64,000 nucleotides of DNA from Kofleriaceae bacterium (lineage in GTDB: Bacteria; Myxococcota_A; Polyangia; Haliangiales; Haliangiaceae), in assembly GCA_024762925.1 (NCBI GenBank), contig JANTGM010000019.1:1-64000 (forward strand). The letters run 5' to 3'. Under the pieces are notes generated by a model. That model had not been told where the DNA came from. It was given only the letters and a program-made list of their open reading frames with translations, and made no database searches. The translations under genes were made by a program, and so were the position numbers. Below, in pieces: positions 10,915 to 47,621 of the stretch. Positions within the stretch are counted from its first letter, which is position 1. Each line of letters opens with the position of its first letter.

Positions 10915-11098
10915 CTAGTGTCTAGTTCATTGACATTGGCCATCAGAAACGAAGAGAGTTCGTTTGCTGGCAAGGCGCGAAGGGAGCTTGCTGGGGCAAG
11001 TGACCGATCAAGCAACGATGAGTGTTGGCTCGTCAACGTGTCCAGCGGCGAGAAGACGTGTGAGCACGCTCAATCTCTTTGAATCACAGCTAGCTAGT
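10915..11098 (-). repeat. Inverted copy of the repeat found at 1-291
   Basis: Read on the minus strand, this stretch aligns with 86-283. It begins ACTAGCTAG, then shares GCTCAC.CGTCTTCTCGCC, then CTTGCCCCAGCAA, then CGCCTTGCCAGCAAACGA, and ends at ACACTAG (10915-10921). It lacks a short internal segment of the plus-strand copy. The remaining bases of 10816-10914 hold nothing I recognise; the TTCGAAT at about 10870 is not flanked by a tRNA T-stem. The repeat just touches the 3' end of the barrel gene at 11094. Confidence 0.6.
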
Positions 11099-11684
11099 AT
11101 GTGTACCGCATGTGGGCCGAAACACTAACGGTATGCATCCGCGCAAACTCCGTGAGATTATTCCACTCGCCTCCCAGCCCAAAGGCGTAGTGACGATTCT
11201 GTAATTGATACTCAAGCCCGCCACCCGCGCCAATTGTGGGAGTGAAGCGCTCACCCGGCTCGAGAATGTCGACAGTCTCCAGGACGTTTGTCGAAACCAT
11301 TGTGTAGCCCAGGCTGCCTTCCGCAAAAACAGCGACCGGACCAATCGAGAGGCTCAGTCGCGCTTCGCCTGCGCCACCATAGAACTGGGTGTACTCACCT
11401 TGAGGAGGACGCGGCAACACAACTTCGTGGCTGGCGATATCAAGTCGGCCTCCAACGCTAAACCACGAGAAGAGGTCGGTTCCCACGCGCAGAGCGAACT
11501 TCGGCCCTTCGTTCGTCCGCCGCTTGGTCTTCCCGACCATCTTCTGGCCACCAACGCTTACCTGGGCGTATGGACCAACCGAGACAGGGCGATCCTCTGC
11601 ATGGGCGGGCAAGGCAAGCGCCGATGCGGCGCCCAGGCTCAAAGCGAGCAGGGCACTACGTACAATTCGTAGCCGACAAAGCAT
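11094..11684 (-). CDS. NfsH/GltH-like outer-membrane beta-barrel protein
   Basis: A 196-residue protein with a signal peptide (cleavage near PAHAEDRP) and a glycine/aromatic alternating mature part (VGPYAQVSVGG, GGAGEARLSLSIG) ending in HMRYTY with a terminal Tyr, typical of a small outer-membrane barrel. It is last in a ten-gene minus-strand operon. The equivalent place in the Myxococcus nfs and glt operons is held by the barrel protein NfsH/GltH, after the AgmX-type protein NfsG/GltG. ATG 11684 is chosen over TTG 11690. Family assignment rests mainly on position and fold; direct similarity was not tested. Confidence 0.6.
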   Translation of the reverse strand: MLCRLRIVRSALLALSLGAASALALPAHAEDRPVSVGPYAQVSVGGQKMVGKTKRRTNEGPKFALRVGTDLFSWFSVGGRLDIASHEVVLPRPPQGEYTQFYGGAGEARLSLSIGPVAVFAEGSLGYTMVSTNVLETVDILEPGERFTPTIGAGGGLEYQLQNRHYAFGLGGEWNNLTEFARMHTVSVSAHMRYTY

Positions 11685-11699
11685 AGACAAACTATAACG

Positions 11700-12518
11700 C
11701 TATGGAGCTTCTTCTTCTGGCGGCGGCGGAACAAAGTCGACAGGCTCGAAGACCGTGAGTTCATCAGCGAGGGCAGCAAGGCCTTCATCGTGAACCAGAT
11801 TGGGCCGAACATGAGAACGAGCACGTAGCGCGTACGCCATGGAAACCCGTCGATTGGTCGTGAGGGCCAAATCCAAGCGAATGAGGCTCGCAAACGCCTT
11901 CGAGGGGATTGCCGTTCCGCCTTCAACCGCGATCTCATCGATGCCGTCATGACTTTCAAGCATGGCTGCAAACGGATTGAGTGCGCCACGGGTAATGAGC
12001 TCCAAATCTAGGGACGCTTCACGAATTTGATCTTCGCGAAACACGCCGCTCAAGGTTCCCCCTGCCGGCACAATGAGCGGAATGTCCCCAGCCAGAGGGG
12101 GGGGCGTTGGCTCTTCCTCTGGATCAACGACGAAGCTTGCAGGAACGTAGGCAAAGTACTCGTTGGCTCCGGTGATGAGAATGCGGACCTGCGCGTCATT
12201 CTCTTCATCGAGATTGGTGATCGTCCATTCGAGTGAGAGGTCGATGTCATCGATGCTGACGAAGGGCACATCAACACCGAGTTCTGCTGCCAATGCAGCG
12301 CGCTCCGTGGCCTCGTCCTCCTCTTCCAATCGCACAGGGAGCAGGAGTTGCACTGGCGGAACTGGCGGTGCCTCATCATCAACGACAGGTGTGGCGATGA
12401 TCGGCTCATCGGGAAAGACGTATCTAGGATCTTCGGCACAGCCTGTGAGAACCGCAGCCACCAAGATTCCGCCAAGTGGCAGAACAGTGAAAGCCGTGTG
12501 TGTGTTTGATGTTCTCAT
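11700..12518 (-). CDS. Lipoprotein of the Nfs/Glt-like operon, no nfs counterpart
   Basis: A 272-residue protein with a signal sequence ending in the lipobox VLTGC. The mature part has Pro/Glu-rich stretches (residues ~45-65 and the C-terminal PPPPEEEAP) around an Ig-like, beta-rich middle with phrases such as LSLEWTITNLDEENDAQV and IVPAGGTLSG. It lies 36 bases after the NfsG/GltG-like gene and about 15 bases before the NfsH/GltH-like gene. The M. xanthus nfs operon, as I recall it, has no gene here; an outer-membrane lipoprotein (GltK) exists in the gliding system, but equivalence is speculation. Probably anchored in the outer membrane. Confidence 0.6.
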   Translation of the reverse strand: MRTSNTHTAFTVLPLGGILVAAVLTGCAEDPRYVFPDEPIIATPVVDDEAPPVPPVQLLLPVRLEEEDEATERAALAAELGVDVPFVSIDDIDLSLEWTITNLDEENDAQVRILITGANEYFAYVPASFVVDPEEEPTPPPLAGDIPLIVPAGGTLSGVFREDQIREASLDLELITRGALNPFAAMLESHDGIDEIAVEGGTAIPSKAFASLIRLDLALTTNRRVSMAYALRARSHVRPNLVHDEGLAALADELTVFEPVDFVPPPPEEEAP

Positions 12519-12554
12519 GGGAGATCCTCGTATGTTGGGTACCTAGTGTTGCGC

Positions 12555-13973
12555 CTATTTCTGACCAAAGATGAAGGGGAAGTTAACCGTAGCGCTGCCT
12601 CCGCCCTTTGGAGATGGGAACTTCATTCGGCTAACCTCGCGAACAACACAGTCCTCAACTCGCCCATTGCGCATTGTGGTGCTTCGAACTTGCGGCCGTT
12701 GCACTGTGCCAGAGCTATCGATCTTCCACTTGACGACTACCTTGCCGCCAAGCCCTTTGTTGCGCTGCAGCTCGCGTGAATAACACGACTGAATTGCGCG
12801 AGCGCGAGTTCTCACGACCTTCATGATTTGGTCTTGTGTGAGGCCGCCAAGGCTTCCAGAGGGCTTGTTCAGCTTGACCTTGATGGCGACTTCCTTGACG
12901 CCCTTGCCACCAGGAGTGCCCTTCGCAGCCCGCTTGCCGCCCGTGTTGAGCTTTCCTTGTGTGCGCACGTCGGCATGGGCGCTTCCATCGCCACCAGTTC
13001 CTTTGCCGGTGCCCTTCGTGAGTGTTCCGGTGCCTTTGCCAGGTCCAACCCCTGTGCCCGAGCCGTCACCAAAGCCCATTGCTGAGCCGTCATTTCGCGG
13101 GCCGCTTAGACGCGCCAGAGCTGTTCCCAACTTCTTGTCAAAGCCTCCTCGGTTGCGCACTTTCTCAAACGCGTCGCGACTCTTTTTGTTGAGCAGTCCA
13201 ACCTGGATCTTCTCAGGCAGTGCCTCGTCTGGCTCACCTTTGTCTGGTGCCTCGTCACGCTGTCGCTCTTTTTTGCCCTCACCGCCACTCTTGCCTGCTG
13301 AGCCAACAGTGGAAGCGGGCTTTGCTTTCTCTTCACCAGTTTCTGTGCCCGCCTTGACCTCTTCAGGCTGCATCTCGATAACGGGGGCTGGGCGGTTGAT
13401 AAGGTAGTTTGCAACCAGATCGCGTCGACCAGGCCAGAGAAACCCCTGCCCAAGGGGCTCGTGAATGGCCAAGGCGTAGATTAGAAAGAAGCCAACTAAG
13501 ACGACCGCAAAGGCAAATGCCGGTAAGAGAAGTTCTGTGTCGCGAACGATCGGACTTCGGGGGAGCTCGGGACTCTTCTTAATGAACTGAAAGAAGATAC
13601 TGTGGTCACCAGAAGAATCCAGGTGAATGACGCCGAAATCGCCCGCTGCAATGCTCTGTCCTCGAAAGCCGCCAGGTTCTGCCGTTCCTGAGCCCATCGC
13701 CCCAACGAAATCTTTGACTTGCTGCTTTGACTTGCCCAGCTCAACTTCGCCACTCATGCCAGAGCCTAGGGTCATGACATAGCCGCGAGCTCCCGGCCGA
13801 AAAATGGCAAAGTCATCTGGCAGGCCAAGGTCTGGCGTGACGATTGTTGCGGTGCCCGTGGTTCCAAGGGTGACTTCCTGAGCCTCCCCGAAAACGGTGT
13901 CTGACATGACTTCGTCACGCCAGATGTAACTAACCCGAAGAACAGGCGCGCCTACTGGGGTAGGTTCGCTCAT
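12555..13973 (-). CDS. NfsG/GltG-like energy-transducing protein with AgmX/PglI C-terminal domain
   Basis: A 472-residue inner-membrane protein. Residues 1-135 form a cytoplasmic beta-rich, FHA-like domain (VFGEAQEVTLG, LPDDFAIFRPG, YVMTLG). One membrane segment lies at about 146-170. A long Lys/Pro/Gly-rich periplasmic linker (GKGTGTLTKGTGKG) leads to an AgmX/PglI C-terminal domain at about 370-472: RARAIQSCYSRELQ, KIDSSGTV and a second Cys in VEDCVV. In Myxococcus such TonB-like proteins link the proton-driven AglRQS motor to outer-membrane components. The ATG overlaps the preceding stop as ATGA. No motor genes are visible in this window. Confidence 0.78.
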   Translation of the reverse strand: MSEPTPVGAPVLRVSYIWRDEVMSDTVFGEAQEVTLGTTGTATIVTPDLGLPDDFAIFRPGARGYVMTLGSGMSGEVELGKSKQQVKDFVGAMGSGTAEPGGFRGQSIAAGDFGVIHLDSSGDHSIFFQFIKKSPELPRSPIVRDTELLLPAFAFAVVLVGFFLIYALAIHEPLGQGFLWPGRRDLVANYLINRPAPVIEMQPEEVKAGTETGEEKAKPASTVGSAGKSGGEGKKERQRDEAPDKGEPDEALPEKIQVGLLNKKSRDAFEKVRNRGGFDKKLGTALARLSGPRNDGSAMGFGDGSGTGVGPGKGTGTLTKGTGKGTGGDGSAHADVRTQGKLNTGGKRAAKGTPGGKGVKEVAIKVKLNKPSGSLGGLTQDQIMKVVRTRARAIQSCYSRELQRNKGLGGKVVVKWKIDSSGTVQRPQVRSTTMRNGRVEDCVVREVSRMKFPSPKGGGSATVNFPFIFGQK

Positions 13974-14368
13974 AGACCCTCCTCCGAGATGGAGCGGACC
14001 ATTTCTGGAACGAAGGAACGCCGCCGCAATGAGGCACGGTGGAGTTCCTCACTCGCTCGGTCGAGAAAGTAGAGGAGTTGAGGCGTGCGCATGCTGGCGC
14101 CGAGATTGAGGCCGGTGAAGTCGAAGACTTGGTTCTTGCCTCCGCTCTTGTTCTTGCTTTCCTTCACCGAAGCCACGGCCCGGGTCTTCCTATCCTTGCC
14201 CCTGCGACGCTTCCGACGTTGCGCATCAGAAACCGAAGGTGCAGCAATCATCATTGCGATGAACACGACAAGTACAGTGTGAGGGCGCAAGCGTGCACTC
14301 CGACCTACCTTGCTCACTACATGATAGGGGGCGCTACCCACCCGCATCCGATTTTCGAGGGGGCTCAT
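13970..14368 (-). CDS. NfsF/GltF-position small secreted protein
   Basis: A 132-residue protein with a signal or anchor segment at about residues 30-48 (VLVVFIAMMIAAPSVSDAQ), then a very basic stretch (RRKRRRGKDRKTR) and a C-terminal region with LLYFLDRASEELHRASLRRRSFVPEMVRS. Its start overlaps the preceding gene and its stop overlaps the next, both as ATGA, so it is a real operon member. It holds the place of nfsF/gltF between the TPR lipoprotein and the AgmX-type protein. No domain is recognised. The FVPEMVRSI helix ending recalls a peptide meant for docking, which is only an impression. Confidence 0.65.
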   Translation of the reverse strand: MSPLENRMRVGSAPYHVVSKVGRSARLRPHTVLVVFIAMMIAAPSVSDAQRRKRRRGKDRKTRAVASVKESKNKSGGKNQVFDFTGLNLGASMRTPQLLYFLDRASEELHRASLRRRSFVPEMVRSISEEGL

Positions 14369-15522
14369 TCCCCCAGCTCCTTTCGTAGTTCCACAGCTTC
14401 CTTACGCTTGGAGTGCTTCGACGAACTGCCCTGCAGGTACCGGTCCAACGCTGCGATCGCCTTGTCGTCATCCATCACAAAATCCATTTCTAAGATTGCC
14501 AGATTAAAGAGGGCGTCGGACCGCACTCGCTTGCGGCTTGCAGGGTTGTTGGCCACAGCATTCCATGTTTTCCGCGCTGCATCGTGCTCTCCTGCGCCGC
14601 GCTGGGCAACACCCAAAGCAACGCGCACATCTTGGTCGCTCGGCACGATTGCAGCGATGGCTTCTAGTTCCAACTTTGCCCCCTGGTAGTCGCCTGCATC
14701 GAGCAGGACGTTTGCTTTGTTGAAACGCGTATCTATGTAGTTTGGGTCTAAATCTGCGGCCTTGTCGAAATAGGAAAACGCCAGCTGGTCATCGCCTTCA
14801 CCCATCGCTACTAAGGCCAGCGCGTTGTAGATTGCCGGATCTTTGTCATTGATCGCCATCGCCTTCCCCAGTACGAGTTTTGCGAGCTCGTCGCGCCCTT
14901 GCGCGAGATAGATAAGCCCTAGCTCCACCATGATTGGGGCACTTGCGCCTCCAACCCGCAGTCCTTCGCGAAGCAGGTCGAGCCCGTCTTCGTAGTCTCC
15001 ACTTGCCCGCAACAGAGATGCCGCGCGGGCATACGAATCGACCGAACTAGGCTCGAGCTCGATGAGTTTGCGGTAGGCCTTGGCTGCCTTCTTGTTGTTA
15101 CCACTGAGCCTGTAGGCTTCTGCTTGGCCAGCCATTGCAGCACGATGAGTCGGGTTGATTTTAAGAGTTTTACCGAATGCCTCAGCCGCCCCTTCAACTT
15201 CTCCCTCTGCTAACAGAAGCGCGCCTAGGTTGTGCCACGCTTCCCAGAGGTTTTCATCAAGCTCCAACGCGTTCCTAAAGCGCTTCATCGCCTTCTCGTG
15301 GGCGTTGGGCCCACCAAGCTTTAAGGCGCGTAGGGCCGAGTCAAACTGCCGCAGTGCCCGAGGGTTCACAGGTGGCAGTTTTGGAGCCTCCTTTGCTCCC
15401 TTTCCAACGCTTCGGCTCTGACTTCCACCACAGGCGGCGAAGCTTCCACTCGTGAGTAGAAGAGCCACCCCGAGAGCCAGGGCCGGTGACGAGACAAGGT
15501 TTCGGAGCCGCTTGCTAGTCAT
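14365..15522 (-). CDS. NfsE/GltE-like TPR lipoprotein
   Basis: A 385-residue protein. The N-terminal hydrophobic segment ends in SFAAC (lipobox), followed by GGSQ. From about residue 55 to the end come some nine tetratricopeptide repeats ([42 protein letters not shown] and others). ATG 15522 gives the signal peptide and overlaps the upstream stop by 8 bases; the open frame extends further upstream without meaning. Position, TPR content and lipid anchor match NfsE/GltE (AglT), an outer-membrane lipoprotein of the Myxococcus sporulation and gliding complexes. Confidence 0.75.
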
Positions 15523-18500
15523 CGCGAACCACCTCCCGCATGAGGTCGATCGACGGAGTTCGATCACCGAGTCGCATGGGCTCCCTCGCTTCCTTGGAGG
15601 GTGGGAACTGGCTCGCCGCCATGCGTCCCAGCGCCGACCGCAGCTTCTTGGTGTAGTCATTGTAGACCTTGAGGTCGATAGCCTTCTTGTAGCCCGTGGT
15701 GTAGAGGTCGATTGCGCGCTCTTCGATGGTGATGACCTCATTGTCCAAAGCGTCGCGATACATCTGCGCTTCGTCTTCGCTCAAGCCATTGGGCGTTGGG
15801 GCTTCTCGCAGTGATGTTGCGAATTCTTCCATTACGGATCCGATGCGGTAGAGGGCCGCGGTCGACCACGATGGATCGCCAAATTCCACGACGTCGAGAT
15901 AGATGAGGGAGGCTTTCTCGAGCAGCCGCATTTTTTGCTTTAGTGCGTTGTCGAGTTTGCGCGGCTTTACATCAAGCGAGACTCGGTCGTACTGGCGGTA
16001 GAGAAGCTCGCCTTGGTAGTAGCGAGCCTCGGCAGCAAAGCCTCGGTTGCGCTTCGCTGAGTCCCCTTTGAGCCTCTTAAACGCCTTTAGAGTCGCTTCT
16101 AGTTGTTTGTTGGCGCGCTTGTACTGCCCCAGTTTGTAGGCGGCGCGCCCTGCGTGTGCGAGGGCCTCGATCTGATGCGCATCACCATTGTACTTGCGCA
16201 AGTACTCCTGATACGCCTTCTCGGCTTTACCATCCTGGCCTGCCGCCTCGTAGACAACAGCGACTCGGAAGGCAACTTCCGCTGCGTCCTTCTTGGTGTT
16301 GCGAAAGCGCTTTGCATAGGCTTGGTAGTGCGCGATTGCCCGCTTGTTTTGCCCAAGCGCCTGTCGGAGAACTCCGGCATTGAAGAGGGCGTCGGCGCCC
16401 TTCTTGCTCTTCGGGAACTTCTCCGTAGTTAGCTCATATGCTTCGGCAGCGCGTTCAAAGTAGGCCATCGATTCGTAGACCACGCCCGCGGTAAACGCTG
16501 CCTCCAAAGCTAGCTTATGCTTAGGATAGCGATCCACAACGCTTAGATAGGTGTCTGCTGCTTGTTCTGGACGTTTCGCCTTCTCGAGCAAGACGGCAGC
16601 ATTGAATGTGGATTGTGGCGCAAGTTCGTGGTCTGGGAACTCTTTGGGCACTCGTAGGTAGAAGCCTGCTGCCTTCACAAAATCCCCAGTCTCAGCATAT
16701 TTCTCACCCGACTTGCCAATCGATTCAACAATGAGGCGGTCAAGTCGGTCTTGTTGTTCCGGCGACTGGAAGCCCTTTGCGTCGCGCAACTTGCGAGCCC
16801 AGTCCTCAATATTCTCGTAGTCTTCTCCTTTGTTGAGCGCGTCGAGAATGCGATCGCCTGCTGCACCCGCGTTTGGATGATTGGGGTACTTGGTGACAAT
16901 GAGGCCAAAGCGCTTGATGGCTTCGTCATAGTCGGCGTAGTCATAGAAGAGCTGGCCATTTTCGTAGATCACGCCAACCAGCTCTGGATCCGCTGGGAAG
17001 AGAGTCGCATAGAGGTCCGTGGCTTCGGCGAACTTGCGATCAACGGGGAGGAGTTCGCGTTGCTTGGTCGTGTCAACAGAAGCGGGCCGAGCCTTGCGAT
17101 AGGCGGCCATTGCTTTCAGCAGCGCATCCTTGTGCCACTTGCCAACCGGGGAAGACTTGCCGACCGCCAGGTACTCATCGCCTGCAGCTTCAAGCTTCCC
17201 CAGCTTAAAGAAGAGGATCTCCGCGTGGAGGAAACGTACCTCGGTAGCGCGCTTGTGATCAGAAAAACTCTCAAGGTAGAAGCCGTACGTGTCGGCTGCC
17301 TGCGCATACACTTTCTTGTCTGGTTGGCCTTGGCTGCGTTCAAGGGCCTGGGCCTCAGCGTGAAACCCCTTGGCCATTGTGCGGACCAAGCGCTCGGACG
17401 ATTCGTATGAGCGCTTGACAGTCTTCTTGTGCTGAGAGTTCTCCTTCGCCCATGCGCTGCCAGGCTTGTAGTCTTCGACCAAGATTTTGATTTCGGCCAT
17501 CGCTTTTGGGCGATCGAGACTCTCAAGATATGCATCGACGATCTGGCGCTGATACGCAGCAGCTTTGATGCTGCTTGGATTCTCCTCAATGAGAAAGCGA
17601 TATGCTTCGATGGAGCGCTCGTAGTCGCCCTGGGTGAAGAAGACTTCGGCTAGGCGCACGATAACGGACTTGGAATACCGCTCACCGCCAATGGAGGCCA
17701 AGAACGCAAAGACGTCCGCTGCCTTGATATTTGGGTCTTCGGTGAATACCAGGACGAGGTAGTCGAGGGCCTCGTCGCGTAGCTGCGATCTGCGCTTCCT
17801 CTCTCGCTCTGTGCCGCTGCGTTCGGCTTCTGCGGCTAGGTCCAAGACCAACTTGAAGCGCTTGGCGGCTTGGTCGGTATCGCCTAACTTCCAATCGCAC
17901 CACGCGGTCTTGAAGAGAGCGAGATCGTAGCTCTCAGAGTCAGGGCGGGAAAGGACCTGGCTATATGCCTCACGTGCTTCGCTCCACTTTCCAGCCGAGA
18001 AAAAGTGCTCGCCGATCATGAGCCACGACTCGCCGTAGAGCGGGGATGTAGGGTAGTTCTGCACAACCTTCGCAAAGAACTGAAGGGCCTCTTCTCGGCG
18101 GCCATCCTCTTGCGAGGCAAAGCCCACGAGATACAAGACGAGGTCTGTTCGGCGGAATTTCGGGTGGTCTGCAAGCAGCGTGCGATAGAGCTCCTCGCTC
18201 TCCTTGAAGGACAGTGTAGGTTCCTTCTTGGGCTTCTTGCAGTCATCCTTGTCCTGGCGACATTTTTCGAGCGCGCGGTCATGACGCTCCATGTCAACGA
18301 GGTATTGCCGTCGGCTGTCCTCCCAGAGCAACTCTGCAAGCTTGAAAAGGCCTTCGGCGCGACCGTCACCTGTCGGTTCGGACTTCAGAAATTCTCTGAG
18401 TAGCCCGATCGCTTCATCGCGCTTGGCATCAACCTTCTTCTCGACCTTTAGAAGCCGCTTGCGCAGTATCTTAGGGAGTCTTGGGGCCTCTGGAACGGGG

Positions 18501-18652
18501 GGGCGCTTGCGGACATAGAGATCGCCTGCAGCACTCTTGTCGAGGCGAACTTCGTTGAGTTCTTGCGCGGAAACACCACCGGCGAGTCCGAGAAGAGTGC
18601 TTCCAGCCACGAAGGTGGAGAGAGCGATTGCTAGTGTACTTGCTCGTCTCAC
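15515..18652 (-). CDS. NfsD/GltD-like large periplasmic TPR protein
   Basis: A 1045-residue protein with a signal peptide (cleavage near GVSAQ) followed almost entirely by TPR-like helical hairpins of the YbgF/BamD type, with repeated phrases such as [23 protein letters not shown]. It starts at GTG 18652, which overlaps the preceding TGA as GTGA; a TTG at 18658 is the alternative. In size (over 1000 residues), repeat content and position it corresponds to NfsD/GltD, the large periplasmic scaffold in the Myxococcus machines. It is one of the longest genes in the window and leaves no gap to its neighbours. Confidence 0.78.
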
Positions 18653-20676
18653 CGCCAACCCTCGTATTCGTCTTTCCAGTACTCGCCCTCAAAAGGCCAG
18701 AATTCTTCGTCGTCACCAATGAGGCCCTGTTCCCAGAGTTGTCCATGTAACTCGGCTGGGAACCGCCCCGACGAAAGGTCCTGGACTTCAATCTCGAGCC
18801 GACGTTTCTGCCCGATCACAGCATCGATTTTGCCAAGCTTTGCCTTATCAAGAACACGCTTAGTCTCGATGTAGAGGCCTTCAAGGGCATTCTTTGCCAT
18901 CGTATCCGCCGTGTTTTCCAGGCGCAGCAAAAGCTCCTTCGCTGCGCTCTCGAGCTCCTTCGATTGGGCAAGGTCGCTGCGGACAAGGGGCTTGAGACCA
19001 TCAGGCGTTGCCTCTTCGTCGGCGATGGCAACAGCTTCCGCCGCGGCGACAGCTCGTGACTCAAGCACATCAATCTCTGAATCGATTTGAGCGAGGCGTT
19101 GGGTTTCTTCTTCTGCATCGGCGCCTTCGATTTCGCCGTCGCGCTTCGCTCTTCGAAGATTGGCTCGAGCTTTCTCAACTTGGTCGCGCAAGCGCTGTAG
19201 GTCACCCACCAACGCCTGGCCTTCGAGTGCTTCTGCCTGCTCAAACGACTGCTCTTCGCTGTTTGAGCGAACTTTCACTCGTCCAAGCTGCTTCCCGAGC
19301 CCCTGCCATGTCTGAACGACGTGGGGAGCGCCACCTGAGGCTCGGCGCAAACCGGAGACGGCCTCATGGACCCGAACAAAGCCTTCGTTGAAGCGCAGAA
19401 GAGCGAGTACGCGATCACTCTTGCTCGCTAGCTTCTCGGTGAGTTGCTCATCGGGCTCGGCCTTCTCCGCGCGCCATCGCTTCAGCGCCTTGTCAAAGAG
19501 TTGGCTTCGTTTGCGTGGATTTTCACGAATGCTTTCGATTTCTTTGACGATGGGGGCGAGGTCCTTTACGAGATCGTCATAGTAGTTCTGAGCATCTGTA
19601 AACTCACAGTCGGCGAGCTCGACGTAGCCAGCCAAGAGCCTCGCCTCAGGAATGAGCGGCGAGTTTGGAAACTGGCGAATGAAGTCGTTTACCAAGTCTC
19701 TCGAGGTGGGGAGCTCACGTTTCTGGTACATGGACCAGGCTGCCTCAAAGAGCGCGTCGCCGAGCTTGTCTGAGTCCTCTGGGATCTGGAAATAGTGATA
19801 ATAGGCGTTGTCGTAGTTGTCAGTTTCGTGGGCAATGCGCGCTAGGCCCAGCCGAGCAAGGTCTTTGATTCGGAAGTAGCGTTCGTCCACAACAAAGGTG
19901 TACTTGCCATCGTCTGGCGTATCGGAAATCTCACAGAAGGCCTCTGCCGCGTCGGCAAACTCACCTTTGCGTGTTCGGATTACACCGCGTAGGTAGAGTG
20001 CCGAGCTGTAGAGTCGGCTCTTGCGTGAAATCTTAACAAGCTCGGCTTCTGCTGCGGAGAAGTTGCCCTCTTCGTAGGCCGCCCGTGCTCGTAGATATGC
20101 ACGCTCTCCACTCACGCCAGGAGGAACCGGCTCGTTCAGTTTGAGCGACTCGAGCTGCCTTAGGACACTCTTCGGTTGCTTTGTTAGCAGGGCAATGTCT
20201 ACGGCCTTGCGATGAGCTGGTGCGAAATACAGTGTGCTAGGGCCCGACGACATGGTCTTGAGCAAGTAGGTCAGGGCAGCGTCATAGGCTCCAGAGCGGC
20301 TAAGCGCCACACCCAAGTAGTACTGGCTATTTTGAAACTCTACGAAGTCTTCTAGCCCCTCGTAGCGTGGCGATTCGACGATTGCGTACAGTGCCACAGC
20401 CGCGTCCTCGTAGGCACCACTGCGAAGGAGGGACTCCGCTCGGCGCAGTTCCGCGATTAGGGTGTCGCGCGAGCCAGATTCGATATCGAGATTTCCGCTC
20501 TTCTGGAGTTCCTCAAAGTAGTCCCCAACGGTTGGCGATGCCTTCTCGTCACCAGTGAACGCTGGGGCTTCTGAGGCCTCTTGTGCCTGCGCTGTGGTTC
20601 CCCCAAGCGCGATAGCGCCCAAACCCAGAGCGCCAACAAACCCGAGTTTAGCTCCGATGTGTCTTGGCAGGCGCAT
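18649..20676 (-). CDS. NfsC/GltC-like TPR protein
   Basis: A 675-residue secreted protein: signal peptide (cleavage near TAQAQE), TPR-like helices at about 70-350, a coiled-coil region at about 470-620 ([32 protein letters not shown]), and a striking aromatic C-terminus, [18 protein letters not shown]. Length and order match NfsC/GltC, a periplasmic TPR component that in Myxococcus works with the GltA/GltB barrels. It overlaps its upstream neighbour by 29 bases and the downstream gene by 4, so it is firmly part of the operon. Confidence 0.75.
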
Positions 20677-21427
20677 GCTTGCGTAGCTCCCCTGTTCGCT
20701 TTACATGGTCAGTCTTCTTGTCACTTCGCTTCTTGGACTTGACGGAAACGTCGAGGTGAAGTTGGTAGCTACCTCGCTCTTTCTTTTTCCACTTGTAGGC
20801 AATGTCGCCGCTGTCCTCGGCTCGCACGCGCACATCGAGATCCTTGCCTTGGATCGCTTGTACGACAAAGCTGTTGTCGATAACGCTGGTGAAGCGTTGG
20901 TCATCCTTGCCGGTTGCCTCAAGACGAATGCTGATTTGGTGACGGCCCGGCGCGATGTAGCCTTCGAAGCGCGGCGCTTTGTCGGATGACACCGTGCCTT
21001 CGCTGTCGTCGTAGATGTTGGCGCCGTCCAGTCGGATGGTGGCGCGAGTGATCGTGTAGTAGCGCGCTGAGGTGTAGTTGAGGCCAATCGACAGTCGGGT
21101 GGAGTAAAGCGCGCTGGCAACGGCCGATGCGCGTGCTTTGGACTGAAAGAGACGATCGCGAAGTTTGAAGTACTCTGCTCGCAATGTCGCTAAATCTTCG
21201 CCGGCAGAGGCCTCCGAGCTCGGCTCTTCTGTCGCGGTTGGCTCTTCTCCTTCTGGTGGTGTTTCGTCGCCATCGCCATCGCCATCGCCATCGATGGGCT
21301 CGCCGTCAATGGTTTCACCTGAATCATCGGGCGCGCTCGCCGGCTCATCGTCGGGCTGTTTGGCCTCGACGTGAGCGGGTAGGGACAGAGCGAAGAAGAC
21401 TAGAAAGAGTTTTGATAGGCCGCGCAT
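20648..21427 (-). CDS. Secreted protein with acidic Gly-Asp repeat, inserted in the nfs-like operon
   Basis: A 259-residue protein with a signal peptide (cleavage near VEAK), then an acidic low-complexity segment containing DGDGDGDGDE encoded by a GCCATC-type hexamer repeat near 21270-21296. A coiled-coil helix (residues ~80-105) and a beta-rich domain follow, with an amphipathic phrase YIAPGRHQISIRLEATGKD typical of PEGA/carbohydrate-like beta folds. The C-terminus is very basic (KSKKRSDKKTDHVKR). It sits between the barrel genes and the NfsC-like gene; the Myxococcus nfs operon has no gene here that I recall. Function unknown. Confidence 0.65.
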   Translation of the reverse strand: MRGLSKLFLVFFALSLPAHVEAKQPDDEPASAPDDSGETIDGEPIDGDGDGDGDETPPEGEEPTATEEPSSEASAGEDLATLRAEYFKLRDRLFQSKARASAVASALYSTRLSIGLNYTSARYYTITRATIRLDGANIYDDSEGTVSSDKAPRFEGYIAPGRHQISIRLEATGKDDQRFTSVIDNSFVVQAIQGKDLDVRVRAEDSGDIAYKWKKKERGSYQLHLDVSVKSKKRSDKKTDHVKRTGELRKHAPAKTHRS

Positions 21428-21476
21428 CGCATGATCCTTGGCGTAGGGGCCCGCGCAAATGCGGGCAAGAACAGTT

Positions 21477-22181
21477 CTAATTAGAGAAGGGGAGGAAGAC
21501 CGACAAACCCGCTGTGAGTGATAGGTCGTTTACTAAGAAATTTTCGTCGAGAAGCTCTTGCCGGAAAACGTGATTGCGCAGGTCTACGCGCAACGCCACT
21601 GCTTCTCCAAGGAAGAGCTTTGATCCTAGACCGGCTACGCCAGCAGCGCCACGACTAGTGGCGGAGTCTACGACTCCAACACCCATGTCGAGATGTAGGT
21701 CAAAGCGGGCAATCGTGCCTCCAAGTCGTAGCTTGCCGTACACAGGAGTCCAAAGCAGGAGGCTCTCCACGAAGCGTACTTGCGCATAGTTGTCCTCAAG
21801 AACCGTGCCGCGTTCGTCTTCAATCGCCCGAATCACATCGGCATTGGCATGAGTAAATGCACCGCCGATTTCTACGGCTGTGCTCTCTGTCATGTGGAAT
21901 GTGTAGGACCCAACTAGCGAGTAGGTACCCGAGAAGAGATCGGAGACGTAGTAACCACCACCGAAAGAAAACTCGTGTCGCGCCTGCTTCACGAAAAGTC
22001 GGTCAACTGTGCCGCGCCGTTTACGCTTAACCGCGAGGCGGTTTGCAATCGCCTTATCGATGCACTGCTCGGTGGGGTGGAACGCAATGTCGCCTCTCTC
22101 GTCTGCATGAGCCGAAGGAGCTTGTGCGATGGTGGCACTGGCAATCGCGATCAGCGCGATAGGGGCTAGGCTGAGCTTCAT
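21477..22181 (-). CDS. NfsB/GltB-like outer-membrane beta-barrel protein
   Basis: A 234-residue protein with a signal peptide (cleavage near SAHADE) and an outer-membrane barrel of the type found beside Glt/Nfs systems (OMP_myx_plus-like): [36 protein letters not shown], then [12 protein letters not shown] and a final [11 protein letters not shown] 22181 overlaps the TGA of the upstream paralogue as ATGA. It is a clear paralogue of the next gene upstream: both share the (K/R)-F-x-x-x-GG-x-Y-x-SDL-S pattern, WTP/WSPI.KLR, and FRFDLRD/RVDLRN. The pair fits NfsA/NfsB (GltA/GltB). Confidence 0.72.
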
Positions 22182-22948
22182 AGTCCTGTTGGGATCCACA
22201 ACGCCAATCCGAGCGTGGCCATGAGGTTGTTTGTTAGTCGAGTTTCAGCGACCGCTTCTTGGACCAAGACAACGTCACGCAAGTCAAAACGGAACGTCAC
22301 CCATTGCGTCGTGTAGAGTTCAAGTGCAACGCCTGCCTGGGCCGCAATGCCCTGCACACTGTTGTGAAAGAAGCGACCGCCACCGGCAGTGAAGACGATG
22401 TCCGAGTGAATAATGCTATCGGTGGTCCGAAGCTTGGCGTGGATTGGAGACCATACAAGACCCGCTAGGCCCAAATAGCCGGTGCCTGGCTTGAATCGGT
22501 CGTCTCCGAAAAACTCTGCCAAAGGCGCATCGAGATCCAAGGCGACGGGCGTGCGGTCAACCGAGAACTCGAGCCCCAAGTCTTCGGTGATGAAGAACGC
22601 GAGTGCTCCGCCGAAAGCGTAGGACGAGGAGAGGAGGTCGGATGCGTAGAGACCACCCCGCGCCACGAGCTCCACTTGCCCCCTTTTTTGAAACTCGCGT
22701 TTCTGAACACCTCGAGGCCGAAGGCTCTGGCCGAGCTCACCGGTGATGCTCTGATCGAGACAGTTGGGAATCGGCACTTCGGAAGGGCGCGAAGCTTCGG
22801 ACGTATCTTCGTGCTCTGACTCGGATGCAGCATTGGGCAACTCTTGAGCGTCTACAGCTTCCGCACCAGTGAGCAGTGGAATACCCGCATGGGCAGCACA
22901 GAGAACGGCAAGTGCGGTGCAGTACCTAGCGGCCTTGGTAGAGAGCAC
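22178..22948 (-). CDS. NfsA/GltA-like outer-membrane beta-barrel protein, first gene of the operon
   Basis: A 256-residue protein starting at GTG 22948 with a long signal peptide (cleavage near AVDAQE), a Glu/Ser-rich spacer, then a barrel matching its downstream neighbour: [50 protein letters not shown]. It is first in the ten-gene operon and faces the FHA sigma-54 activator across 113 bases. In Myxococcus the two barrels form outer-membrane parts of the sporulation (Nfs) or gliding (Glt) machine. Which of the pair is A or B cannot be decided from the sequence alone. Confidence 0.7.
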
Positions 22949-22962
22949 GGTGCAAGCCTACC

Positions 22963-23021
22963 CCCGGTCAGAACACCGGGTCAATTTGCCGACGCGAAGT
23001 CTGAGTTTGCCCACAGGTGGG
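22963..23021. promoter_or_regulatory. Palindromes between the nfs-like operon and its divergent activator
   Basis: CCCGGT-CAGAAC-ACCGGG (22963-22980) and CCCAC-AG-GTGGG (23010-23021) are perfect inverted repeats in the 113-base divergent spacer, which makes them operator candidates. A TTGACG follows at 23022 on the plus strand without a clear -10. Confidence 0.35.
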
Positions 23022-23061: not shown

Positions 23062-24447
23062 ATGAGGGCGCAAAGCGAGCTAGCATTCCACACCGTGGCA
23101 GACGTCTCCGGAACTCGAATTCAACGCGATGGTGGTGTTCCAACCGTCAATTTGCGGCAGTGCAAGCTCGTGGTGCTCAAGGGGCCAGAGCGAGGCAGTG
23201 AGCATGTGGTTCAAGGAGAAGTGATTCGGGTTGGCAAGGGCGAAGACAATGATCTCGTCATAACCGATGAGACCGTCTCGCGTTACCATTTTGAGATTGT
23301 GCGCGATGCGAAGGGCTATCTGCTTCGCGATTTGCAGTCGACCAATGGCACATTTCTCGATGGTGCGGAAATCCGCGAGGCCTACATTCGGGCAGGAGCC
23401 GTAATCGCCGCAGGGGCCGCAGAACTCAAATTCAGCCCGTTTGAAGAGCGCATCCAGATTCTACCATCCGAGAAGGAAAAACTCGGCAGCATGGTGGGGC
23501 GCTCGCAGAAGGTTCGTCAGATTTTTGGGCTTATTGAGCGAATTGCCCCCACGGATGCCACAGTACTCATAGAAGGAGAAACAGGCACAGGTAAAGACAT
23601 TCTTGCGCGAAGCATTCACCAGCTATCAAAGCGCAAAGATGCTCCGTTTGTCGTGGTGGACTGTGGTGCCGTCTCAGGAACTCTGATCGAGAGTGAGCTT
23701 TTTGGACACGAAAAGGGGGCGTTCACGGGTGCGAGTACCCAGAGGTTGGGAGCCTTTGAATACGCCAATGGCGGCACGGTGTTCCTCGACGAACTCGGTG
23801 AGCTGTCACTTGATCTGCAGCCCAAACTGCTAAGGGTGCTAGAGCAGCGGGAGATTCGCAGGGTAGGTGGATCACAGACCATCAAAGTGGACCTTCGGGT
23901 GATTGCGGCAACACGCATGGACCTACGAAGTGAAATTGAGAAGGGGAAGTTTCGAGAGGATCTCTATTTCCGACTCAACGTGGTGCCGATCGTGTCACCT
24001 GCGCTCCGAGATCGGAAAGATGATATCCCTCTGCTGGTTCGCCACTTTCTCAAGGATCTCGCACATGAGGATGCCCCTGAACTGACGGAAGCGAGTCTTG
24101 CCGCGCTCATGGCCCATGATTGGCCAGGCAACGTTCGGGAGCTAAGAAATGTTCTGGAGCGCGCGCTGGCCCTCCGAGCCGATCCGGGCACCCTTGTGGC
24201 GCCCTTGGGTGAGCAGCGAGGTTTCAGCCAAGCCGCTCCACAAGGGCCCGGCTTCACCTTTGAGGAAGGCATCTCGTTCCGTGAGCAGAAGGAACGTTGG
24301 ACCGACGAGTTTGAGTCAAAGTACCTCAGGTGGTTGTTGGAAGGCGCAAGTGGCAATATCTCGAAGGCGGCGCGAGCAGCTGATATGGACCGAAAGTACC
24401 TTCACAAGCTGCTCAAGAAACACGATATCGATCCCCGTGATCTCTAG
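23062..24447 (+). CDS. FHA-domain sigma-54-dependent transcriptional activator
   Basis: A 461-residue activator. Residues ~35-125 form an FHA phosphothreonine-binding domain with intact R56-x-G58, S73-R74-x-H76 and N95-G96 motifs. A AAA+ domain follows (~140-370): Walker A GETGTGKD, the sigma-54-contacting GAFTGA loop, Walker [11 protein letters not shown] and WPGNVREL. The C-terminus has a Fis-type HTH ([24 protein letters not shown]). It has no receiver domain, so the input is probably Ser/Thr-kinase phosphorylation read by FHA. It is transcribed away from the nfs-like operon and may regulate it. ATG 23062 has only a weak AGG upstream. Confidence 0.9.
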
Positions 24448-24486: not shown

Positions 24487-25791
24487 TCAGTATCGGAAGA
24501 GCATGCCAAGCTGTAGCGTGAATGCATCAACAGCTTGACCACTTGAGAGGAACTGGCGATCGATTCCCTCGCGATTGTCTTCGATGGGATCGGCAGGAAG
24601 CTCATCGAGCAAGTAGACCTCGGCTTTGAGGTTGAAGCTCACTTCGTCAAAGACACCCAGAACGTTTCCGCCGTTTTCATCGAATTTGATGTAGCTAAAC
24701 TTCATGCCACCGACGATGTTGCGGATGGCACCAAGCTCGCGGTCGCCTGTGAAGTACTCGCCAGCGCTGCCTTCCGTTTCGTAGAAAAATGCATCCTTAA
24801 AGAATGTCGCCTCGGACTGCTGGTAGATGCGTGCATTGGTTCTGAGCAGTAGGCTGTTGCCGAAGTACTGGCTATAGCCCAAGCCAAGCGTGACGGAGTT
24901 GACACCCCAGGTATCTGTGTAGCCCCGTGCCATTGCGTGCATTGCACTCTTGATGCTGGGCAAGTACTTGTTCACACGGGCCATAAGAGCAACCCGGCCC
25001 CGCACATCAGGCAAATGCTCTTGTGCCTCGACTCCAGAGACGCGCACACGTCGATAGGGATTACTCTGAAACCCGCGTGCAACTTGGCCATAGAGCCCGA
25101 ATTGCGCAACGACGGAAGGGGAGATGTTTTGCGTAACGGTTGCTTGCGTCGTATCAAATGAGAGGTCGCGCCAAACACTGTCACCCGCAACGTCTTTGCC
25201 GAGAAGAAACTTCTGCTTCTCACAGGCCTGTTGCCCAGTAAGAGGCCTTCGCTCGAGTGCTGTCGCCATGCCATTGTCGAAGTCGCAAACCTGATCAAAG
25301 CCGTGGTTGTAGCTGAGTGCGAGAGCGGTGTTCTTGCCGGGCAAGTCGACCTTTGCACTAGCACCAACACCAATCGAGTTGTAGTCACGCTCGCTGCCAA
25401 TGTTGCCTGAGATACTCAGAGTGGAGCGCGAGCCGTAGAACGTGATGCCTGTGGTTGCGGCGTGACGAAGGTCTTTAAAGGTGGTTGCCGAAGAGACAGC
25501 GTCGGTGGAGTAGACAGCTGCGGTGGCTCCACTCACAGCATCAGCCGAGTACCCAATATCGAGTGTCGTATTGTCTCCAGCATCGACGCCAATGTCGAAT
25601 TGTGGATGCACGACCGTGAGGCCCCCAAGGTTGCCCTTGCGCTTCTCTTGGTACCAAGTGGTTGTGCTGTCTACGCGATCTTCGGCGTGGGCTTGCGCAA
25701 GCGAAGAGGGCGCAACAACCCCAGCCAGGGCTGGCAGTACAATAGGAAGTGCCATGTAGGCCAGTCCAAGGAAGCTCGCTGAACGTTTCAT
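24487..25791 (-). CDS. DUF3570 family outer-membrane protein
   Basis: A 434-residue protein with a signal peptide (cleavage near AQAHAED) and a long beta-rich chain that reads as an outer-membrane barrel: alternating strands such as TTLDIGYSADAVSGAT, SRSTLSISGNIGSERDYNS, VNSVTLGLGYSQYFG, and a terminal MLFRY. The SADAVSGAT..VYSTDAVSSAT phrases and the partner gene (DUF4266) identify the DUF3570 family. ATG 25791 is chosen from the signal peptide; the frame extends upstream over the neighbour. DUF3570/DUF4266 pairs often lie near ApbE flavin transferases and redox proteins, but no function is established. Confidence 0.8.
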   Translation of the reverse strand: MKRSASFLGLAYMALPIVLPALAGVVAPSSLAQAHAEDRVDSTTTWYQEKRKGNLGGLTVVHPQFDIGVDAGDNTTLDIGYSADAVSGATAAVYSTDAVSSATTFKDLRHAATTGITFYGSRSTLSISGNIGSERDYNSIGVGASAKVDLPGKNTALALSYNHGFDQVCDFDNGMATALERRPLTGQQACEKQKFLLGKDVAGDSVWRDLSFDTTQATVTQNISPSVVAQFGLYGQVARGFQSNPYRRVRVSGVEAQEHLPDVRGRVALMARVNKYLPSIKSAMHAMARGYTDTWGVNSVTLGLGYSQYFGNSLLLRTNARIYQQSEATFFKDAFFYETEGSAGEYFTGDRELGAIRNIVGGMKFSYIKFDENGGNVLGVFDEVSFNLKAEVYLLDELPADPIEDNREGIDRQFLSSGQAVDAFTLQLGMLFRY

Positions 25792-25804
25792 GCGCGAGTC
25801 GTAC

Positions 25805-26089
25805 CTAGTTGCAGCCACAGCCGCCGCCACCTGTGCCTCGGCCGCCAGCGGAACCTTCGCGGTTGGACAAGATGTGTTCATCAGCAGATGTCTCTTGGCC
25901 ATCTGCATCGAACTGCATGATGCGATCTGCGAGAAATTCCTTTTCACTGGCACGTACAGCCTGCTTGCCGCACGCACCGAATAGGAAACCCGTCGCAAGC
26001 ACGCACGCAAGAATGAGCTTGGTGCGTCCACTTGGGATGTTTGTTGCCTTAGAAGAAGATTGCCAAGCCACCGCTATACTCCTGTCCAT
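25805..26089 (-). CDS. DUF4266 small lipoprotein
   Basis: Up to 94 residues. The hydrophobic segment LILACVLATGFLFGAC carries the lipobox FGAC. The mature part is ASEKEFLADRIM, then DEHILSNREGSAGG, and ends GGGGCGCN. The REGS.GG...GGGGCGCN tail is the hallmark of DUF4266. It overlaps the upstream SH3 gene by about 40 bases from ATG 26089; GTG 26071 is an alternative start. The terminal Cys-rich tail suggests a metal or redox site, which is an inference. It directly precedes its regular partner, the DUF3570 protein. Confidence 0.85.
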   Translation of the reverse strand: MDRSIAVAWQSSSKATNIPSGRTKLILACVLATGFLFGACGKQAVRASEKEFLADRIMQFDADGQETSADEHILSNREGSAGGRGTGGGGCGCN

Positions 26090-26825
26090 TGGACGCTTGA
26101 TCCGGGTCGTGAATCGTCCAGTTCCGGAAATCCAAACGCAACGTGATTTGTTTCTTTAGAGTGATTTCAAAGCCACCGCCAGCGACGAGGGCATAGAGTG
26201 TTTCTGGGTCTTGTGTGAAATTGTCTGCTTTGGGTCGTAGATGCGCAGCTCCCACGCCGGCATGCATGTAGGGGCCAATCGCAGCACCCGGCAGCATGCG
26301 AAGGGTCCAGCCGATGCCCCCAAGAAAGAGGTCTTCCTGTTGGCGTGGGCTCAGGCCAACAAATCCTTCAAGGGCGAAATAGGGGTCAATAAGCCAGGCT
26401 GGGCGAAGGAGAAATGTGCCTTCGCCATCAAGTGTGCCAGCGGAAAACGAAATTTCAACATCTGCATATGGCACTGGGGAGGGCCCCAAGAGCGTGTCGG
26501 AGATAGCACCGCCAATCCGCGAGAAGAACCCTTTCTCCACGTCATCAACAACCTCGAAGGGGAAGACGAGTTCTCCAAAAATCCACCCCGTCGTTCCGTC
26601 GTCCAAGCGCACTTGGTACCAGTAGTTTTGCGTGCTGCGATCGAGTACTTCGAGCACATCTCCGCGCTCGGCAAAATACACACTACGGTATTGAGCGGAA
26701 GGTCCGGTGTGTACGGGGGCATCGTGACTGATGACGCGGAGATAGGCCTCCGCCTTGGCCTGCCTAGGAGAGGCGAGAAGAACTCCCAAAACGAGCACCA
26801 GGGATAGCCAAATTGTTCGTCTCAT
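26049..26825 (-). CDS. SH3-domain outer-membrane beta-barrel-like protein
   Basis: A 258-residue protein with a signal peptide (cleavage near AKAE). Residues ~28-90 form a bacterial SH3 domain (APVHTGPSAQYRSVYFAERGDVLEVL, WYQVRLDDGTTGWIFGELV). The rest is a glycine/aromatic beta-strand region ending in AIFF, consistent with an eight-strand barrel (YFALEGFVGLSPR, IGPYMHAGVGAAH, ITLRLDFRNW). ATG 26825 overlaps the upstream TGA as ATGA. A peptidoglycan- or peptide-binding SH3 attached to an outer-membrane barrel is inferred. Confidence 0.7.
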   Translation of the reverse strand: MRRTIWLSLVLVLGVLLASPRQAKAEAYLRVISHDAPVHTGPSAQYRSVYFAERGDVLEVLDRSTQNYWYQVRLDDGTTGWIFGELVFPFEVVDDVEKGFFSRIGGAISDTLLGPSPVPYADVEISFSAGTLDGEGTFLLRPAWLIDPYFALEGFVGLSPRQQEDLFLGGIGWTLRMLPGAAIGPYMHAGVGAAHLRPKADNFTQDPETLYALVAGGGFEITLKKQITLRLDFRNWTIHDPDQASNGQEYSGGLAIFF

Positions 26826-27292
26826 TCGGTCACAAACCAATCGAGGAAGACAAGTTCAGACTCGCTGCCTGGAGCAAAGAGCTCGCCGCCACCGTGGCTA
26901 TCCACGCCGCTCATAGGCTTTGTGAGCAGGGAGCTAGCCTGGGGGGTGCCGCAGTTTAGAAAGCGCGTTGTCACGTTGTAGTTGGCCGTGAAATCGATCG
27001 GTGGATTGACTGAGACGCGAAACGCAGAACGACCGTTTTCGAGCTGGTGACATCCACCCTCGGCTACGCACGATTTTGCTTCGTCTGCGGTTGCGATAAA
27101 TTCTGGCCAGATGAATTCTTCGAAGTAGGCAGGGTCTGGACGACAGGCACCCGGGGAGACCGGTGTTTCTCCCAAGTCAACAGTTGGGCATGCGGAGAGC
27201 AGGGTACTCGCGAGCGCAACGCCCATCGCGCCCAGCCCAATGCGTGACATTCGGTCAGGCACGCTCGCGTTTGAATCGGGTACTCGGTTCAT
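26822..27292 (-). CDS. Lipoprotein with PSCyt-like Cys-His motif
   Basis: A 156-residue lipoprotein, ATG 27292, with lipobox LLSAC. The mature part has F..FIWPEFI followed by SCVAEGGCHQ, an atypical C-x5-C-H motif, then SAFRVSVNP and a C-terminal PMSGVDSHGGGELFAPGSESELVFLDWF. This recalls the planctomycete-type cytochrome c modules common in myxobacterial lipoproteins (C..xGCH, then G.H.GG, ....I..W). Covalent haem binding is uncertain because the Cys spacing is not CxxCH. It is the first gene of the SH3-DUF4266-DUF3570 operon. Confidence 0.6.
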   Translation of the reverse strand: MNRVPDSNASVPDRMSRIGLGAMGVALASTLLSACPTVDLGETPVSPGACRPDPAYFEEFIWPEFIATADEAKSCVAEGGCHQLENGRSAFRVSVNPPIDFTANYNVTTRFLNCGTPQASSLLTKPMSGVDSHGGGELFAPGSESELVFLDWFVTE

Positions 27293-46379: not shown

Positions 46380-46811
46380 ATGGCGAGCGTGAAATGGTTG
46401 AGCGGTGCGGTTCTTGGAATGGCAATGGTCGCTGGCTGCGGCGGCGGAGAGAAAAAGGTCGCCGAGCCTGAACCGGAGATCGAGGAGCCCGAGGACGAAG
46501 GCGAGGAGCTTATCCCGGAAGAGAAGTTTGAGGAGATTCAAAGCACCTTTGAGCGCAAGGCATCAACGGTAGCTCGGTGTTTTCCTATTGCGGTGGAGTC
46601 GGGAGAAGTCGACAAGAATGAGCGCATCGCAGTGAGCCTCGGGCTGACGATCAACCCTGATGGCTCTCCGACGAAGCTTGAGATTCTGGGTGCGAGCAAG
46701 CGCTCGGCCACCCTTGAGAAGTGTGTTATCGAATCGGTGTCACGCTGGCAGTTCACTACCTTGCCGCGGGCCATCCAGTATTCGTACGGCTTCAAACTAC
46801 AGAGCTTCTAA
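46380..46811 (+). CDS. Lipoprotein with AgmX-type C-terminal domain (I)
   Basis: A 143-residue lipoprotein (lipobox VAGC, then GGG and an acidic EPEPEIEEPEDEGEE linker). Residues ~50-143 form one AgmX-type domain: Q.....KASTVARCFPIAVE, SLGLTINPDGSPTKLEIL, TLEKCVIESVSRWQFTTLP. The Cys pair (ARCF, EKCV) about 55-60 residues apart is the same as in the NfsG-like protein of this window. ATG 46380 has GGAGG seven bases upstream and overlaps no gene. Why it sits in a beta-oxidation operon is unclear. Confidence 0.72.
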   Translation: MASVKWLSGAVLGMAMVAGCGGGEKKVAEPEPEIEEPEDEGEELIPEEKFEEIQSTFERKASTVARCFPIAVESGEVDKNERIAVSLGLTINPDGSPTKLEILGASKRSATLEKCVIESVSRWQFTTLPRAIQYSYGFKLQSF

Positions 46812-46820
46812 GGGAACGCT

Positions 46821-47621
46821 ATGCCTCGAAACGAGAACATTGTCTTGCCATTGGCGCTGCTCGCCATCGGCCTTGTTGTGCCAGGTTGTGGTGGAGCTGA
46901 GAAAACGTCTGAGTCTGCCGCTGTCGATGTGAACGAAATCGAGCAGGACGATGAAGGTCCAACACGTCGTAGATCGCGCGTTCCAGGTATGGACGACGAC
47001 GATGATGATGACGACGATGATGTCTCAATCGAAGGGCTAAAGGGGCACCTCGACCCTTACGATATCCAAGTAGGTATGGAAGGCCATTCCTCAGCGCTTG
47101 CCACGTGTTTTCAGGTCGAAGCCAAGCACAAGAAGTTCCTTGGCGGGCAAGTCGAACTGAGTTTCACGATCGCCAGAGATGGAACCGTGAAGAGCGTGCG
47201 TGCCACAAAGAGCAGTGTCGGGTCGTGGCCCGTCGAAAAGTGCCTCTTGGCCGAGAGCCGCACAATGAAATTCAAAAAGCCGAAGGGAGGGGAGGCAGAC
47301 TTCAGCTTGCCGCTCGACTTCGAGGCGCGGCGCAGCGCGAATTGGTGGACCGAAGAGAAAGCCGAAGGCGCGATTGGCGTGCTGGCCAAAGAGCTCTCCG
47401 CTTGTTCGGGCGAAGCGGGCTCGGCTGAACCACGCAATGTCTGGGTCACGCTCTATCTCGGCAATCGAGGTGTTGTGGAATCGGTTGGTTTTGCTTCACC
47501 ACACACAGCGGGCATTGACACAGCTTGGGCGGATTGCGCTCAGTCGCGGGTGCGTGCTTGGACCCTAGTTGACCCGCTTGGCAAGATTGCCAAGTTGGGA
47601 TTTCGCTACAACCCGGAGTAA
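46821..47621 (+). CDS. Lipoprotein with AgmX-type domains (II) and poly-Asp tract
   Basis: A 266-residue lipoprotein (lipobox VPGC). A ten-Asp tract (about residues 58-67, encoded near 46993-47022) separates the anchor from an AgmX-type domain with ALATCFQVEAKHKKF, SFTIARDGTVKSV and PVEKCLLAESRTMKF. A second, weaker copy lies at about 180-266 (ELSACSGEAG, VTLYLGNRGVVESV, WADCAQSRVRAW). It follows the preceding lipoprotein by nine bases and is clearly related to it. Anchored in an envelope membrane; partner unknown. Confidence 0.7.
   Translation: MPRNENIVLPLALLAIGLVVPGCGGAEKTSESAAVDVNEIEQDDEGPTRRRSRVPGMDDDDDDDDDDVSIEGLKGHLDPYDIQVGMEGHSSALATCFQVEAKHKKFLGGQVELSFTIARDGTVKSVRATKSSVGSWPVEKCLLAESRTMKFKKPKGGEADFSLPLDFEARRSANWWTEEKAEGAIGVLAKELSACSGEAGSAEPRNVWVTLYLGNRGVVESVGFASPHTAGIDTAWADCAQSRVRAWTLVDPLGKIAKLGFRYNPE

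Follow-up and report, generated by a model that had tools for sequence, protein, structure and literature searches.

The 64,000-nucleotide stretch of DNA analysed here (hereafter the window) belongs to the 6.79-Mb genome of a Kofleriaceae-like myxobacterium. Examination of its open reading frames confirmed the ten genes predicted on the minus strand between 22948 and 11094, which are listed below in the order of transcription with the letters used for them in the text.

A1, 22178..22948, minus strand: outer-membrane beta-barrel of 256 aa, GltA/GltB, NfsA/NfsB type (TIGR04565 OMP_myx_plus, 98.6 bits, cut-off 60; signal peptide)
A2, 21477..22199, minus strand: outer-membrane beta-barrel of 240 aa, GltA/GltB, NfsA/NfsB type (TIGR04565, 101.5 bits, cut-off 60)
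X, 20648..21427, minus strand: periplasmic protein of 259 aa with an acidic linker, a 36-residue helix and an 8-strand beta-sandwich (predicted structure)
C, 18649..20676, minus strand: GltC/NfsC-like periplasmic protein of 675 aa (NF033756 gliding_GltC, 4e-28, 98.5 bits, cut-off 450)
D, 15515..18658, minus strand: GltD/NfsD-like TPR protein of 1047 aa (TPR repeats; match to D of locus L193)
E, 14365..15522, minus strand: GltE/NfsE-like TPR lipoprotein of 385 aa (NF033758 gliding_GltE, 2e-32, 112.5 bits, cut-off 225; lipobox FAAC)
F, 13970..14368, minus strand: GltF/CglF/NfsF-like small basic periplasmic protein of 132 aa (profile match; position)
G, 12555..13973, minus strand: GltG/NfsG-like TonB-type inner-membrane protein of 472 aa (NF033760, 1.3e-38; AgmX/PglI tail)
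K, 11700..12518, minus strand: outer-membrane-type lipoprotein of 272 aa, beta-sandwich (lipobox LTGC; family alignment)
H, 11094..11690, minus strand: small outer-membrane barrel of 198 aa, CglE-like, in the GltH/NfsH position (NF033755 gliding_CglE, 2.7e-10, 40.4 bits, cut-off 70)

The genes are closely packed, with an overlap or a gap of less than 40 bp at eight of the nine junctions. A1 and A2 overlap by 22 bp, X and C by 29 bp, C and D by 10 bp, and both E and F and F and G by 4 bp; the gaps measure 49 bp between A2 and X, 36 bp between G and K and 9 bp between K and H. The overlap of D with E is 8 bp if E begins at the ATG at 15522, which is most likely its start and gives the 385-aa protein with the lipobox, the mechanical start of the frame being at 15741.

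Signal peptides or lipoboxes, together with a single transmembrane helix in G (about residues 152-170), bear out the secreted, lipoprotein and membrane features ascribed to the products from the sequence. The TPR repeats ascribed to three of them are strong in the products at 14365 and 15515 and weak in the 675-aa product at 18649. The expected resemblance of the products at 18649 and 12555 to GltC and GltG was recovered by the profile matches listed above, and that of the product at 15515 to GltD by its alignment with D of L193 (29% over 999 aa, 5e-99), the only Pfam/NCBIfam library models matching this protein being those for TPR. The match of G to NF033760 covers model positions 204-647 only; its tail carries the AgmX/PglI C-terminal domain that had been proposed (NF033768, 105.8 bits against a cut-off of 40), and an FHA domain was absent from G in Pfam and NCBIfam searches. 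A sequence search of the PDB with G returned weak TonB matches only. Domains of the AgmX/PglI C-terminal type also occur elsewhere in the window, on the plus strand, in three neighbouring frames between 46530 and 49557 (46530-46796, 47052-47321 and 49300-49557, the second alone exceeding the curated cut-off), and in another contig of the same genome a single 564-aa frame has three successive tails of this type (C157:7367-8473, L056).

Among the smaller components, H also scores above the Pfam cut-off for PF13505, and the family profile of F aligns with the CglF/C7 F profile at moderate strength (hhalign E 6e-5, probability 65%). Neither X nor K is matched by any Pfam or NCBIfam model. In the model of X most of residues 81-210 have a pLDDT above 80; a fold search returned transthyretin-like and similar topologies with Z about 8, which were read as a common arrangement and not as a relationship. 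K has an invariant R-E motif in its family alignment and a model with a mean pLDDT of 80, for which the fold search gave generic beta-sandwich matches only.

Conservation of the operon and its upstream region

The expectation that the gene order would be conserved in relatives was borne out in Kofleriaceae-type genomes as well as in other families of the Polyangia. The full order A1-A2-X-C-D-E-F-G-K-H was found in eight loci (L123, L125, L129, L134, L135, L160, L161 and L167), L160, L161 and L167 being the more distant among them, and the remaining loci agree with it up to the ends of the sequences or the limits of detection. Less closely related genomes of the class keep the order A2-X-C-D-E-F-G as far as these genes could be detected. 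Relatives of C with 50-72% identity are present in most genomes of the same family, and invariant residues extend across most of the protein in nine loci. Since both sequence and order are conserved in many relatives, a chance arrangement is excluded. Of 239 sampled genomes of the phylum, 30 contain the lineage of C to which the window belongs, and all 30 are in the class of the window. The operon was not found in G006, a genome of the same family that is 97% complete.

Two features lie immediately upstream of the first gene:

22955..22984, minus strand: sigma-70-like box TTGACC-N18-TAGGCT, conserved among relatives, with its end 6 nt upstream of the A1 start codon GTG
23062..24447, plus strand: FHA / sigma-54-type AAA+ activator with a Fis-type HTH, 461 aa (PF00158, 1.5e-70; PF00498, 1.9e-16)

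The divergently transcribed activator adjoins the operon in 35 of the 40 loci with room for it, several of these loci being duplicate entries from the same genome, and its identity within the order (62-77%) is above that of most of the operon proteins. The activator is thus a probable regulator of the system. Its sigma-54 type had raised the suspicion of a sigma-54 promoter before the operon; in 24 upstream regions no such site scored better than in shuffled sequence, and sigma-54 sites show no clear excess in the window. A box of the form TTGAC-N17/18-TANNNT precedes the first gene in 21 of 32 upstream regions (14 of the 24 distinct ones; shuffles gave a mean of 0.015) and typically ends 6-8 nt before a GTG, which suggests housekeeping-type transcription of a leaderless or near-leaderless mRNA, as predicted from the box. 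The divergent activator could nevertheless make expression of the operon conditional, counter to vegetative expression. Beyond the activator, at 24487-26840 on the minus strand, are a DUF3570 protein and an SH3-domain protein, the frame of the SH3 region having a weak OMP_myx_plus match (24.5 bits).

A third Glt-type lineage and its candidate motors

Two further Glt-type modules were identified in the source genome, so that three such systems coexist in one organism. The first, on contig C4 and named after it, contains E, D, a C scoring 321 bits against GltC (about 98 bits for C of the window) and a G scoring 353 bits with an FHA domain. The second, on C7 (L120), has the order X-C-D-E-F-G beside obgE, and its proteins are about 22-25% identical to those of the window operon. 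Apart from the window operon, no Glt-type module of the genome has OMP_myx_plus barrels above the cut-off within its cluster. Another two OMP_myx_plus barrels, adjacent to each other, of 310 and 321 aa and just above the cut-off, were found on contig C13 (C13:9031-10937, L053), away from any C, D, E or G genes; it is possible that these barrels are the outer-membrane partners of the C4 module.

In the phylogenetic tree of C the window operon falls in a clade of its own (100 SH-aLRT), as it does in the tree of D (support 100; 100/100 in the careful D tree). These trees took in no nfs or glt sequence of Myxococcus; the Glt-like kind is represented by L193, in which GltC and CglF both score above their NCBIfam cut-offs and which sits in the C4/Glt-like clade. 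The clade of the window is distinct from that of L193 (100/100, D tree) and also stands apart from another clade, made up of other classes, whose members have barrels; in the D tree the C7-type D lies closest to it (91/95). The equivalog cut-offs of NCBIfam are not reached by the window proteins, which score 98.5 against 450 bits for GltC, 112.5 against 225 for GltE and 133.1 against 650 for GltG. The one GltC-positive genome is the sole member of its class, and none of the 239 genomes of the phylum sample passes the GltJ cut-off. Because C and D form clades of their own, the operon is read as a paralogue of Glt and not as an orthologue; on these sequence comparisons it is the third paralogous Glt-type lineage, so far found only in the class Polyangia.

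The prediction that the motor would be encoded elsewhere agrees with the finding of no MotA/ExbD gene within the 64-kb window and of two Agl-type trios elsewhere in the genome. A useful reference for the assignment of Agl-type motors is provided by a motor-plus-transducer cluster in the metagenome-assembled genome of an uncultured proteobacterium (L175:7207-18148), in which an R-Q-S motor is immediately followed by a barrel, C, D, E and a G with an FHA domain. On comparison of its R protein with the 11 MotA proteins of the source genome, two stood out (2e-36 and 2e-27, the others being 1e-11 or weaker), and both belong to MotA-ExbD-ExbD trios, on contigs C16 and C28, in which every ExbD retains the membrane aspartate. 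A sequence search of the PDB with the motor proteins gave TolQ/ExbB matches only. The two trios occur throughout the family with or without the operon, and both are present in G002, G006, G024 and G026, in which it was not found; assignment of one trio by co-occurrence was therefore rejected. By sequence similarity both trios are the best motor candidates, neither being linked to the operon. The AglRQS motor is common to Glt and Nfs (PMC3858216), and by analogy one motor may possibly serve several modules here.

Comparison with known systems and probable role

The arrangement resembles that of the Nfs system of Myxococcus xanthus (nfsA-H, MXAN_3371-3378), which is likewise one contiguous operon (PMC2875238, PMC3858216) and shares with the window operon, in the same order, two barrels, C, the TPR protein D, the TPR lipoprotein E, a small F, a TonB-type G and a small terminal barrel. 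The content and order noted from the sequence were thus confirmed, with X inserted between the barrels and C, and K between G and H. The description of X and K as two added genes holds relative to nfsA-H; X is shared with C7, where a homologue (25%, 5e-11) stands at the equivalent position. NfsG has an FHA domain (PMC2875238), whereas G of the window lacks one and the operon has a divergent FHA/sigma-54-type regulator; the likeness to Nfs refers to gene content and order.

With the Glt system (GltA-K) and AglRQS of Myxococcus xanthus the operon shares relatives of GltC, GltE, GltG, CglE and CglF and the location of the motor genes, here the two candidate trios, away from the operon. It differs in forming one operon in place of two clusters, in containing neither GltI nor GltJ and in scoring far under the curated cut-offs, with a module closer to Glt (C4) in the same genome. 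An FHA-less G beside an activator that itself carries an FHA domain is a clear departure from the Glt and Nfs systems as well as from the C4 module. The core Agl-Glt systems of Gammaproteobacteria, Geobacter and Fibrobacter (aglRQS with gltC, D, E and G; PMC3169522) share the four transducer genes, whereas in the window the motor genes are unlinked and the barrels, F, H and K are added. The C7 module has X, an FHA-less G and the order C-D-E-F-G in common with the window operon, but neither barrels nor K and H adjoin it. Glt-type genes including barrel genes, sometimes in several copies, are reported from Sorangium, Plesiocystis and Haliangium (PMC3169522). The general kind is therefore already known, while the FHA-less variant containing X and K was not found described in the literature searched.

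The linkage of homologues for C, D, E and G, together with the paired OMP_myx_plus barrels, supports the original prediction of a trans-envelope complex of the Glt/Nfs type; its further description as complete is too strong for an operon in which G is devoid of FHA and GltI and GltJ are missing. The operon probably encodes a transducer that connects inner and outer membrane in a proton-driven surface machine related to Agl-Glt and Nfs, as a third paralogous lineage in the Polyangia. In the working proposed for the Agl-Glt system, the motor would drive the TonB-like GltG, and the periplasmic domain of GltG would reach across the wall to GltA/B in the outer membrane and propel them (PMC5349195, PMC4488436; for the mechanism of the Agl-Glt/Nfs family see also PMC3858216). 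By analogy with this family, an AglRQS-like MotA-ExbD-ExbD motor encoded elsewhere would drive the TonB-like, GltG-type protein at 12555, and its periplasmic tail would make cyclic contacts via C, D and E, with F and X, to the barrels A1 and A2. These, with the lipoprotein K and the barrel H, would be dragged along the cell surface, and a bound cargo, such as an adhesin or a glycan, would travel with them. The sequences establish the gene content and order, the inheritance of the genes as a unit, the separate lineage and the presence of two candidate motors; assembly into one complex, coupling to the motor, transfer of force and the cargo are all inferred from the family. The role is likely to be a surface process of vegetative cells, either gliding or the transport of a surface polymer, the consensus-like box being the only basis for vegetative expression.

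Several readings of that role may be weighed. The operon may tentatively be regarded as the gliding machine of its lineage, a Polyangia counterpart in function of Myxococcus GltA-K that recruits an adhesin, since gliding in Myxococcus requires both GltA and GltB (PMC4488436), no other Glt-type module of the genome has such barrels above the cut-off in its cluster, and a CglE-like barrel and an outer-membrane lipoprotein are gliding-type parts. This falls short of being probable, as the GltC and GltG scores of the C4 module, which has the FHA domain, place it far nearer to Glt, GltJ is missing from the operon and exceeds its cut-off in none of the 239 genomes sampled, and the operon was not found in the 97% complete genome G006 of the same family. 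Transport or remodelling of the envelope apart from cell movement, in which a lipid, polysaccharide or outer-membrane protein is moved along or across the envelope, is a somewhat unlikely explanation: core Glt-type complexes exist in bacteria not known to glide, where their role is unknown (PMC3169522), and the coexistence of three modules in a single genome points to differing cargoes, but the conserved ten-gene unit includes no transport enzyme, glycosyltransferase or transporter.

It is rather unlikely that the operon acts like Nfs, moving glycan strands round the cell for a spore or cyst coat after being switched on in development by the divergent activator. The single contiguous operon in nfsA-H order and the conserved position of the activator fit such a role, against which stand the FHA domain present in NfsG and absent here and the sigma-70-like box, in place of a sigma-54 site, before the operon. 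That the operon is a decaying duplicate without a function of its own, as the presence of two other Glt-type modules might suggest, is extremely improbable with ten open frames, tight overlaps and sequence and order kept across several families. Returning to the preferred reading of a transducer for a proton-driven surface machine, an extension of it is unlikely though worth stating, namely that the Agl-driven envelope machines of the Polyangia include a third one with a function of its own, in which X and K are private parts and the FHA phosphopeptide sensor is on a divergent transcription factor and not on GltG, and which would serve some surface process apart from gliding and spore coating.

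Few systems are known that convert a flow of protons in the inner membrane into motion of objects on the cell surface, and the Agl-Glt/Nfs machines are among them. A separate lineage in a compact ten-gene operon, with accessory parts and a regulator, offers a tractable unit for the study of the other jobs of such a motor and of the parts that set its cargo.
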